A stretch of DNA of 64,000 bases from Podocnemis expansa (taxonomy: Eukaryota; Chordata; Testudines; Podocnemididae): positions 2,009,382 to 2,073,381 of the forward strand of contig ML682121.1 in the NCBI GenBank assembly GCA_007922195.1, given 5' to 3'. The translations under genes were made by a program, and so were the position numbers. Shown here piece by piece: positions 14,801 to 18,335 of this stretch; within the stretch, counting starts at the first letter, position 1, and each line of letters starts with the position of its first letter. The notes under the pieces are model-generated. The model saw nothing but the letters and a program-made list of their open reading frames with translations, searched no databases and had not been told where the DNA came from.

Positions 14801-17800
14801 AGTTGTCATGATTGGCAGTGAGGGATATTTCCTGAGGCAGTTTAGTATGACAAAAAAATAACTTCAGCATCTAGACTGATCCTTTTCCAGTAAAGGATTT
14901 TGCAAAATGTGCTATTCCTCTCGCACTGGTAATGTTATTTTATTTATCAGCAAAACAAGGCAGTTTTGCTGATAAAACATGTATTGGGTGTGTACGCAGG
15001 GCTTGATTTGTCACCAAAAGTTGGCTTCTTGTTAGAAAACTTTCTATTGTAGACAAGGCCTCACTTGGCTCTATTCACCTGCAAATTGTGCTTTGGCGAT
15101 TGGAACAGGGGCAGAAGGTGCTGAGTGCTGGACTCTTGCTTTTTCAGGGGCTGGTGACCTTTGAGGAGGTGGCTGTATATTTCACTGAGGAAGAGTGGGC
15201 TTTGCTGGACCTTCCTCAAAGAGCTCTCTACATAGATGTCATTCAGGAGACCTACAAGAATATAACTTCACTTGGTGAGGATTCCTATTTGTTTGGTTTT
15301 GGTAGGGGAGATGAAGAGTTACAGTGCATGAACAGAATAGCACAACACCTAATAGTAAGTAAGGGTGAACCTTGGCAACAGCAGACCTGGTACTGTGCTA
15401 TAACAGCTTCCCAATGGTACTCATGGAGTGTTCCAAGGAAGGAGTCTTGAGAGAAGAGCGAAGAAAGGGAGGGCACTGTGGACAACCAGCACTCAGTGGA
15501 AGCAGGAAGGGTAAAGTGAAAGAAGGAAGAGTGAATTGGGGATAAGAGACCTGGGGAGTGGGTAGTTGGGGGTGGGGAGGACTGTGAATTCGGAAAAGGG
15601 AAGGTAGAGCCCAACAGGGTTGTTGATGTTGTGGTGAGGGGGGGATTAGATGCAAAATCTTGTTTTCCTGCTGGTGTGGAACATTTGGGTAGCAGGGAGG
15701 GAAGGAATTTAGGAATGATTGCTGTCGGAGGACAGCCATCTCTCTTCTCTGTGGCGAGTAAGTCAACTGTCTGTTGAAATCATCTATTCCTCACAGTGAC
15801 AATATCATCCTTTCCTGCTTCATATATCCACTTGCATTTGATGTCATCAATTGGTAGGGTAACTTCTTGGGACTAAAAGGGTTATAATTTCTCCACTCTC
15901 CATCCGCAGCCTCCACAATCTCTCTTACCTACAGGTTCCTGGAATCTTTAAGTCAGTCCCTCTTGAAGTCACATAGGCCTGATTCTTTTTCACATTCTTC
16001 TTTTTCAGACAAATTAGAGACTTGCCCCTAGATTACAGAATCTAATTCACTGGCGTTATCCATGCTGTGGGGGACATTTATGCTCCCTTCCCTCACCCTG
16101 ATTTACTGGAGTTCCTATTTCCTCAGAATGTGCTGTCTGTCCATATGACACACTTGACATGCTGCATTCTGGTATGTCTGCATTCTTATTCCTTACTGTG
16201 CAGAATCCTGCCAGCCAGATTTCCTAGAGTGCTATCTCTCTGGTTTCTTTTACGTCAGAAAGAAGCATTTTGGGGGCACCTTTGAGTGGTTGGTTCTGTT
16301 TGTTCACAGAAGAGATGGGAGCAGTTAAAGACCCTAAAAGGCGAGTGCCCTACATGTTTCAGCAACATGGAAGCTAACCCTGGCTTTTTACTGTCTTAAA
16401 ATGGGTTGGGTGATAAAATAATAGAACATTTAAGTTCACCTGATGTGCCTTTGTTTCTTTCCTTTGAGCAGGGTTTCCAGTTTCCATACCTGATGTGATC
16501 TCCCAGTTGGAAAAGGGGGAAGAGCCATGGGTCCCAGAAATCCAGGACTCAGGAGAACAAGGGATCTTACAAGGTCCCTACAGAGGTGAGGAATAAAAAA
16601 TCAATCAATCCAAAAACTGTTGATGGGTGAAAAAAAGAGCTTGGATTCCCTAGCAAAGCCTCATGAATTCTCTCAGTTCAGGATTGTACCCAGCATGTAG
16701 CATATCCTCAGGGCAGAGATTGCTCATTGCTTCCTTTGCATCATCAGTGACACCTGGCAGTAGCTCCTCCTTTCACCTCTGAGTGTTTGAATACGAGGTA
16801 GAATCAGAATTGGTCCCCTTTTCTGCAGGAGCAGCACTGGCCCAGGAAAAGACACCCCCGCCTTACCCATTCAGGGCCTGGGCCTGATTTGGATCCCGGG
16901 CAGAGCCTAGATCAGCTCCTGCTTCCCACAGCCCAGCCCCAGACCCCTGGCCAGGGCTAGGACTGCGTGGCTGCGGGTTGGACCCCCCAGCACTGGGATG
17001 CAGGACATGAGCTCCCATGTGCCCAGTGGTAGCAATACCACAGCTTTTCCATCTCCTATGGGAAAATAAATGAGAGCATTCAGCATTAACAGTGTTTGTC
17101 CTTTGTGATTCTGAGATCTCTCTGTTGCAGCAGGTAGTGGTATCATGTGTAAGAATGGGGAGGAGAATCTGCAGATGGATGTTGACCAAGAACAACCACA
17201 CAGGACATTATTGCAGAGACCCAAAGGGAATGGGTCTAGAAATCTCCAGCAAATGCGATTCTGTGCGAGTCAGCACAGGCTAGCCAGGCGGCATATCCTG
17301 CTGGCAGGGGAAGAAGTGAATGAATCCATTAATCACCAGGGAATTCATGAAGACCCCAACAAAACCACAGATACGTACAGAAGCCTCACTGGGGAAAGAA
17401 AACATGCATGTCCCGAAAGGGGACAAAGCTTCTCTCAGCACTCACATCTCATTTATCATGAGACAGCTCACACAGGGAAGAGACCATATGAATGCAGTGA
17501 GTGTGGGAAAAGATTTACTGAGAGCTCTGTCTTCATTATACATCAGAGAATCCACTCAGGGGAGAGACCCTTCAAATGTAGTGAGTGTGGGAAAAGCATT
17601 TTTGTGAACTCGGCCCTGATCACACATCAGAGCATCCACACAGTAGATAGACCTTACAGATGCACTGTGTGTGAGAAAAGCTCCAGAGACATGTCAGATT
17701 GCAGTGAGGAAATTATTTCCATAAAAGATGATGAAGCACTACAAATATTGGAGCAAGGAGATGAAGGAATTTCACAGACAAATGTTGAGGAAGTTGACGA

Positions 17801-18335
17801 GTTCTTTCAGGAACAAGAACAATTAGAGATTCGGCCAAAATGGAGAATTAGCTTAGTGGAAGGCTCGCTAGAAGAATTTGAGTATGATATGTTAAAGCAA
17901 ACAGAAGAAAAAGCCACTCAAACTGAAGATCCACCAAAAACTACTACTCAGTATACTTTGTGTACTATAACTCCATTACTGAGAGATCCTTTAAACAAAT
18001 TCTTAGTAATGGTATATATAAAATTGGATAACAGAGAAATTGGTCAAGTTTGTTATTTAGACCCAGGATCAATATACTCTGTTTTAAATAAAAAGATTTT
18101 GCCAGAAATTCTCCCATACAAATCAAAGGAGAAAATGAGAGTGACTGGAAGATCAGCAAAGTTGGAAACAACAGTCCCTTTGTCCATAAGAATAGGAAAT
18201 AAAGCAATTATAAATGTGCAGTTTGGTCTAATGGAAATAGAAGGATATCCATATGGAACAATAGGATTAGATATCCTTAAAGCATTAAAGTGTTCCATTG
18301 ATTTTGAAAAGGGTCTGATGTTTCAATTGGTATAG
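11804..18335 (+). CDS. KZFP-2: KRAB-zinc finger protein fused in frame to a retropepsin-like domain
   Basis: Coding exons are 11804-11881 (exon begins at 11793), 15148-15274, 16472-16585 and 17134-18335. All have AG/GT boundaries and matching phases, giving 506 aa (488 aa from the inner ATG at 11858, MAAVEPVQ). KRAB-A is complete ([15 protein letters not shown]) at about residues 27-68. The second KRAB-region exon follows. The terminal exon has three fingers at about residues 199-275. Finger 1 lacks its second Cys (CPERG), fingers 2 and 3 are complete, and a fourth starts (CTVCEKS) but breaks off near 17,681-17,690. From there the frame continues for about 220 codons through an acidic region into a retroviral protease-like domain, then a stop. 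KZFP-1 and KZFP-3 have ten fingers, so the array was truncated by insertion. A gene product is plausible because every exon is open. The alternative is a chance open frame in a dead gene. An AATAAA lies at 19,185-19,190. Confidence 0.75.
13053..14482. repeat. Large GC-cored inverted-repeat transposon in KZFP-2 intron 1
   Basis: It begins 'ggctatgtctacacttt' and ends 'aagtgtagatgcaccc', with AT-rich 'gaattaa' palindromes at the edges and a GC-rich core of imperfect 'ggggagccctgg' / 'gggacaggggagccc' repeats. A second end and about 70 bases of flank recur at 13,604-13,755 and 14,399-14,550, showing an internal tandem duplication of about 795 bp. A relative in the opposite orientation lies at 50,157-51,328. 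The open frames in it are repeat artefacts. Confidence 0.6.
17690..18335 (+). other. Retroviral aspartic-protease-like segment of the KZFP-2 frame
   Basis: The first part is acidic and Glu-rich ([14 protein letters not shown]). The protease-like part starts near 17,950. Family features visible are a beta-rich start ([10 protein letters not shown]), a catalytic-loop equivalent [11 protein letters not shown] at about 18,057-18,090, and the C-terminal signature [17 protein letters not shown] near 18,258-18,309, matching the hydrophobic-hydrophobic-Gly element of retropepsins. The catalytic Asp is kept, but the next residue, normally Thr or Ser, is Pro, which would be expected to weaken or abolish activity. 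No stop occurs in the segment. It is an old viral relic and is described here only as it stands. The virus family is not assigned. Confidence 0.6.

Follow-up and report, generated by a model that had tools for sequence, protein, structure and literature searches.

A KRAB zinc-finger reading frame that continues into a retropepsin-like tail in Podocnemis expansa: probably a broken gene copy with an accidental in-frame extension

When a stretch of 64,000 nucleotides of Podocnemis expansa DNA (contig ML682121.1; hereafter the window) was analyzed, one KRAB zinc-finger gene, KZFP-2, was observed to run from its zinc fingers into a retroelement-derived, retropepsin-like tail. The fused reading frame is real, and a gene of this architecture is unusual. 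We consider that KZFP-2 is probably a broken tandem copy of a KRAB zinc-finger gene to which a retroelement tail became attached in frame by accident; the tail would be open by recency, and selection on the fusion is not supported.

The window contains four KRAB zinc-finger genes with one exon layout. KZFP-2 (11,804-18,335) and KZFP-3 (from 37,079) lie on the plus strand, and KZFP-1 (coding pieces between 5,825 and about 2,290) and KZFP-4 (coding pieces between 61,244 and about 55,530) on the minus strand. Exon 1 of KZFP-2 (11,804-11,881) starts with an ATG, contains 26 codons and ends at a phase 0 donor (GTAGGG). Its 26 residues share 80.8 % identity with those of the exon at 37,079-37,156, and a leader of the same kind precedes KRAB in the turtle protein P0010. 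The KRAB exon (15,148-15,274; Pfam KRAB E-value 8.2 × 10−21) and exon 3 (16,472-16,585; 114 nt, phase 1 on either side) are both bounded by AG/GT sites. Paralogs of the KRAB exon are located at 38,599 and, on the minus strand, at 5,005 and 61,244; exon 3 has three paralogous exons in the window. The last exon (17,131-18,335) includes the stop codon, and its KZFP part (17,131-17,690) consists of a spacer, a degenerate finger 1, fingers 2 and 3 and the beginning of finger 4 (tblastn 55 % to KZFP-1 and 55 % to KZFP-3).

When the four exons were joined, a frame of 1,524 nt (508 codons) was obtained in which the only stop is the terminal one. It consists, in this order, of the KRAB part, a spacer, three zinc fingers and a fourth that is only begun, followed by approximately 212-217 retroelement codons up to 18,335. 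The acceptor of the last exon is a NAGNAG (17,131 or 17,134) and the frame stays open both ways (508 or 507 codons). KZFP-2 carries the KRAB box that characterizes a KZFP, together with a zf-H2C2_2 match (E-value 1.8 × 10−21). The original prediction that the upstream exons and splice phases are intact, and that the frame passes without interruption from the fingers into the retropepsin-like segment, was thus confirmed.

KZFP-2 has three C2H2 fingers, while 9, 10 and 9 fingers were counted in the three paralogs by the same pattern. The second Cys of finger 1, a zinc ligand, is missing, and finger 4 is severed after its Cys pair. Fingers 2 and 3 had been proposed as two complete fingers; their zinc ligands are retained, but each has an altered linker and one change in the core (Leu to Phe and Phe to Ile, respectively). 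The finger core positions of KZFP-2 are decayed, with 3 of 18 departing from the conserved pattern vs. 19 of 1032 elsewhere (one-sided Fisher p = 0.0053). This comparison set comprises the three paralogs (1 of 168) and 16 proteins (18 of 864). The 16 are all the matches with at least 90 % coverage among the 120 listed for the KZFP part; all of them are turtle proteins, and the other 104 matches were not used. The KRAB box of KZFP-2 is intact and contains the EEW motif. Three of its 24 conserved columns are changed, which is inside the range (0-4) of 18 other sequences, including 15 of the 16 turtle proteins (P0074 has no KRAB).

The end of KZFP homology, i.e. the junction, is situated somewhere in 17,682-17,697, as local alignments to KZFP-1 and KZFP-3 end at 17,682 and those to KZFP-4 at 17,697. 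The sequence that follows (17,694-17,760) aligned with the finger arrays of these paralogs no better than shuffled sequence (score 10; shuffled mean 10.7).

The tail consists of two parts on the plus strand. The first (17,691-17,951) is acidic and retroelement-derived, and has the same third-position base signature as the protease core; no Pfam family was found on 17,685-17,951. The second (17,952-18,335) is the retropepsin-like core of 127 residues with the stop codon. With the RVP family (PF00077), the exon product of 400 residues gave an E-value of 0.17, the tail of 215 residues 0.051 and the core 0.018; for the core, RVP was the one family listed at E ≤ 10. The match covers profile positions 8-100 of 101 and, at 15.8 bits, lies below the curated cut-off of 20.7 bits for membership. 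When the tail alone was compared with PDB sequences, one search gave no retropepsin at E ≤ 10 and another gave 7efy_A at an E-value of 0.93. A two-row profile (alignment A1) was then made of the core and the open piece of a decayed neighbor (described below), and five chains were matched at E ≤ 10. These were 7efy_A (UBA domain-containing protein; 0.00076), 4rgh_A (DDI1 homolog 2; 0.0042), 3s8i_A (DDI1 homolog 1; 0.039) and, more weakly, 7d66_B (ubiquitin family protein; 0.58) and 9qev_A (carbonic anhydrase; 1.3). We take 7efy_A and 7d66_B to be DDI1-type proteins. By this profile, homology of the tail to solved retropepsin-like domains is recognizable at the sequence level.

An Asp-Pro-Gly had been predicted at the catalytic place of the tail, and in both alignments examined it sits on the Asp-Ser-Gly of the DDI-type domains (7efy_A and 4rgh_A). 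The tail therefore reads Asp-Pro-Gly in place of the Asp-Thr/Ser-Gly motif of an active aspartic protease. Single-sequence AlphaFold2 models of the tail were unusable (mean pLDDT 34.7 and 33.3). Codon third positions are uniform across 17,700-18,332 (A 0.46, C 0.08-0.09) and differ from those of the finger part, where A is 0.26 and C is 0.23. None of 20,000 random first-order sequences of the composition of the tail was open for 215 codons; this result and the coding signature rule out a chance ORF in random sequence.

No tail-like sequence was found in KZFP-1, KZFP-3 or KZFP-4 by tblastn within the window. The stretch 17,698-23,298 (plus strand) is absent from the other three genes, and flank homology resumes beyond it, to KZFP-3 at 23,299-23,344, 23,863-24,023 and 24,533-24,696 and to KZFP-1 at 24,665-25,711. 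As the paralogs lack the tail and flank homology resumes on the far side, the retroelement stretch postdates the duplications, or at least entered KZFP-2 alone. Within 23,299-24,774 the blocks related to the KZFP-3 flank are reordered (24,708-24,774 corresponds to 42,908-42,974, and 23,299-24,696 to 43,615-44,233), which may point to an additional rearrangement or a mobile piece. In KZFP-3 itself, ten good fingers are followed by a stop (41,880-41,882) and then by degenerate finger-like sequence with more stops up to about 42,240, so that this array seems to have been shortened by a stop. Two tRNA-Gly(tcc) predictions were also noted on the minus strand (52,556-52,627 and 54,025-54,096), approximately 1.5 kb apart.

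A second, decayed retropepsin-like piece is located downstream of the fused frame (18,769-19,138, plus strand) and has 28 % identity to the fused core. Its 43-residue alignment with the tail scored 52, vs. a mean of 28.7 and a maximum of 43 in 60 shuffles; by itself it gave a tblastn E-value of 0.26 and no Pfam family. As this piece is decayed yet matches the tail significantly, the tail and the downstream sequence come from different or long-diverged copies. The region between the two pieces (18,476-18,680) resembles by eye the end of a hAT-type DNA transposon. Reading through the 1,243 codons of 18,690-22,420 requires at least 43 frame changes or stops, i.e. one every 29 codons, compared with a mean of 64.2 (s.d. 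5.7) in 200 random sequences subjected to the same test, which fits an old coding sequence with many interruptions. Pfam analysis of ten open downstream pieces gave one chance-level match (CTHRC1_C, E-value 0.11). No LTR-like direct-repeat pair was seen around the tail in 14,500-34,000. The polyadenylation hexamers in 18,336-21,000 (one AATAAA at 19,185 and seven ATTAAA) were uninformative. Further on, 26,200-26,470 resembles by eye a fragment of a retroviral or Ty3-type integrase with broken frames.

It had been proposed that an open tail beside stop-riddled retroviral sequence is what selection on a fused product would look like. The contrast itself was found (no interruption in 215 codons vs. 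at least one every 29 codons on average in 18,690-22,420). However, it is not by itself a mark of selection because a recent junction yields the same contrast. When the tail and the downstream sequence were assumed to be of equal age, the probability of the given 215-codon run was 0.0006 and that of any such run among about 50 was 0.03, rising to 0.12 and 0.27 with mean runs of 38 and 46 codons.

The K2P distance of the KZFP-2 introns is 0.19-0.23 to KZFP-3 and 0.19-0.29 to KZFP-1, and from half of these values we infer approximately 0.1 substitutions per site on the KZFP-2 branch. The probability that the tail stays open neutrally was 0.52, 0.14, 0.037 and 0.0014 when 0.01, 0.03, 0.05 and 0.1 substitutions per site, respectively, were assumed to have accumulated since the junction formed. 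For the whole coding frame it was 0.23, 0.05, 0.012, 0.0006 and <0.00001 at 0.01, 0.02, 0.03, 0.05 and 0.1. These figures assume 0.06 indels per substitution, compared with 0.08-0.15 measured in the KZFP introns, and so favor neutrality. Neutrality therefore needs a young junction (less than about 0.02 substitutions per site).

A codon branch model was applied to 264 codons, with exon 1 left out. On the whole set three topologies were nearly equal (lnL −2782.16, −2781.08 and −2781.11); the subset runs used one topology. Omega of the KZFP-2 branch, which also spans time before the fusion, was 0.72 (0.54 on the rest) and indistinguishable from 1 (2dlnL 1.38). By subset, it was 0.38 for KRAB and exon 3 (2dlnL vs. 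1 of 3.19, a trend that is not significant at one degree of freedom), 1.10 for the spacer (2dlnL vs. 1 of 0.06), and 0.68 for the fingers. For the fingers, neither the difference from the other branches (omega 0.33; 2dlnL 2.16) nor that from 1 (2dlnL 0.75) was significant. Omega was significantly below 1 for KZFP-3 (0.48; 2dlnL 6.90) and KZFP-4 (0.52; 2dlnL 8.41). As KZFP-1 (0.68; 2dlnL 1.52) was likewise not significantly below 1, the branch test does not prove that KZFP-2 differs from KZFP-1.

Relatives of the tail were also sought. None was obtained at E ≤ 10 in annotated vertebrate proteins among 440 and 115 candidates, i.e. proteins of 220-700 and 118-376 residues, respectively, that share exact five-residue words; Gag-Pol polyproteins of more than 700 residues fall outside this range. 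In the viral contigs scanned, three stretches fitted a pattern and none was a relative. When the KZFP part was used as the query against the same collection, 1158 of 1223 candidates matched at E ≤ 0.001. Because this collection holds turtle KZFPs, a conserved annotated fusion would probably have come to light if the sampled turtles had one, while long polyproteins would not. A literature search, from which most subscription papers lay outside, found no paper treating KRAB together with retropepsin, and is therefore weak. Selection on the fused product, as originally predicted, is not supported when the finger decay, an omega that is not distinguishable from 1 and the lack of tail relatives in these searches are considered together.

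The following course of events is proposed. KZFP-2 would have arisen as a tandem-duplicated turtle KRAB zinc-finger gene, and its array would have been severed in finger 4 as retroelement DNA replaced the remaining fingers. A deletion or rearrangement may have linked the exon to the region just before a retroviral-type protease. About one in three such junctions would be in frame by chance, and translation would then continue to the first retroelement stop. Most likely the copy is a decaying or barely functional relic and the chimeric tail a by-product. The protein, if made, would have a KRAB box that perhaps still binds its co-repressor. Its two weakened fingers would recognize DNA with little specificity, and its retropepsin-like domain would lack the normal catalytic triad. 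Several observations count against a relic. None of the 508 codons or of the splice sites is disrupted, and the junction age required is well under the divergence of the branch (less than about 0.02 vs. about 0.1). In addition, KRAB and exon 3 show the trend toward a low omega, the KRAB departures are within the range of the other sequences, and interruptions, frequent in the adjoining stretch, are absent from the tail.

Several of these observations would be accounted for by a captured and selected KRAB-retropepsin, a reading that we regard as unlikely. Here a catalytically altered protease would have been captured in frame and its fold kept, as in other host-retroelement fusion genes, as a structural or dimerizing module through which the KRAB repressor would reach a retroviral partner (e.g. 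Gag-Pol) or its own dimer. The DNA-binding fingers would be dispensable, as targets would be found, or dimers formed, through the protease fold, and selection would keep the 508 codons open. The whole frame, its phases and both alternative acceptors are open as this reading would have it, and so much of the core pattern is retained that DDI-type domains are still matched. The open tail beside interrupted sequence and the KRAB trend point the same way. However, no tail relative was found in annotated vertebrate proteins of 118-700 residues, the fingers are decayed, the catalytic position reads Asp-Pro-Gly, and the openness hinges on the age of the junction.

Somewhat less likely still is that the KZFP part continues to function as a KRAB factor, albeit with few fingers, and merely tolerates the retropepsin-like tail as a longer C-terminus. 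The intact KRAB box with its EEW motif and the omega of 0.38 agree with such a factor, but all three fingers have an altered core position, one zinc ligand is missing from finger 1, and omega of the fingers is not significantly below 1. It is very improbable that the fusion reflects an assembly error or a chimeric join at about 17,69x. The assembly is a draft and the window includes two gaps of N (7,957-8,356 and 32,829-33,713); neither is near the junction, and further on the sequence flanking the insertion runs collinear with that flanking the paralogs. The broken tandem copy is thus retained as the preferred reading.

KZFPs and retroelements are in mutual conflict. Among known proteins with which the KZFP-2 tail would share its fold are DDI1 and DDI2, as indicated by the two-row profile match. 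According to one source, SASPase and PEG10 are retroelement-derived proteases with a retropepsin-type fold in host proteins, and none of these proteins is described there as joined to KRAB or zinc fingers, unlike in KZFP-2 (PMC3406341). PEG10 retains the DSG, which is also found in the aligned DDI chains, while the KZFP-2 tail has Asp-Pro-Gly. The same source describes SCAN-domain KRAB zinc-finger proteins, in which, as in KZFP-2, a zinc-finger/KRAB gene carries a domain from an LTR retroelement (the Gag capsid of a Gmr1-like element; PMC3406341). SCAN is an old, expanded and conserved capsid domain, whereas KZFP-2 has a protease-like piece in a single copy, with no relatives found in the above searches. 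In KRABINER and other host-transposase fusions, the coding sequence of a mobile element is described as fused in frame with a host gene, KRAB included (PMC12062965). These differ in having a transposase DNA-binding domain and a shown function, while KZFP-2 has a predicted retropepsin-like tail. ZBTB11-type proteins resemble KZFP-2 in combining a Pol-derived domain with C2H2 fingers in one protein, but theirs is an N-terminal integrase zinc-binding (HHCC) domain that is conserved in vertebrates (PMC12062965). Capsid, integrase and transposase pieces are therefore already described in zinc-finger or KRAB proteins (PMC12062965, PMC3406341). A protease piece would, if true, be a new kind of captured domain, and a selected fusion would be new. 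If KZFP-2 is only a relic, it indicates that, where a genome evolves slowly, an in-frame host-viral junction can mimic a designed gene, and it yields numbers on how long such a frame survives without selection.
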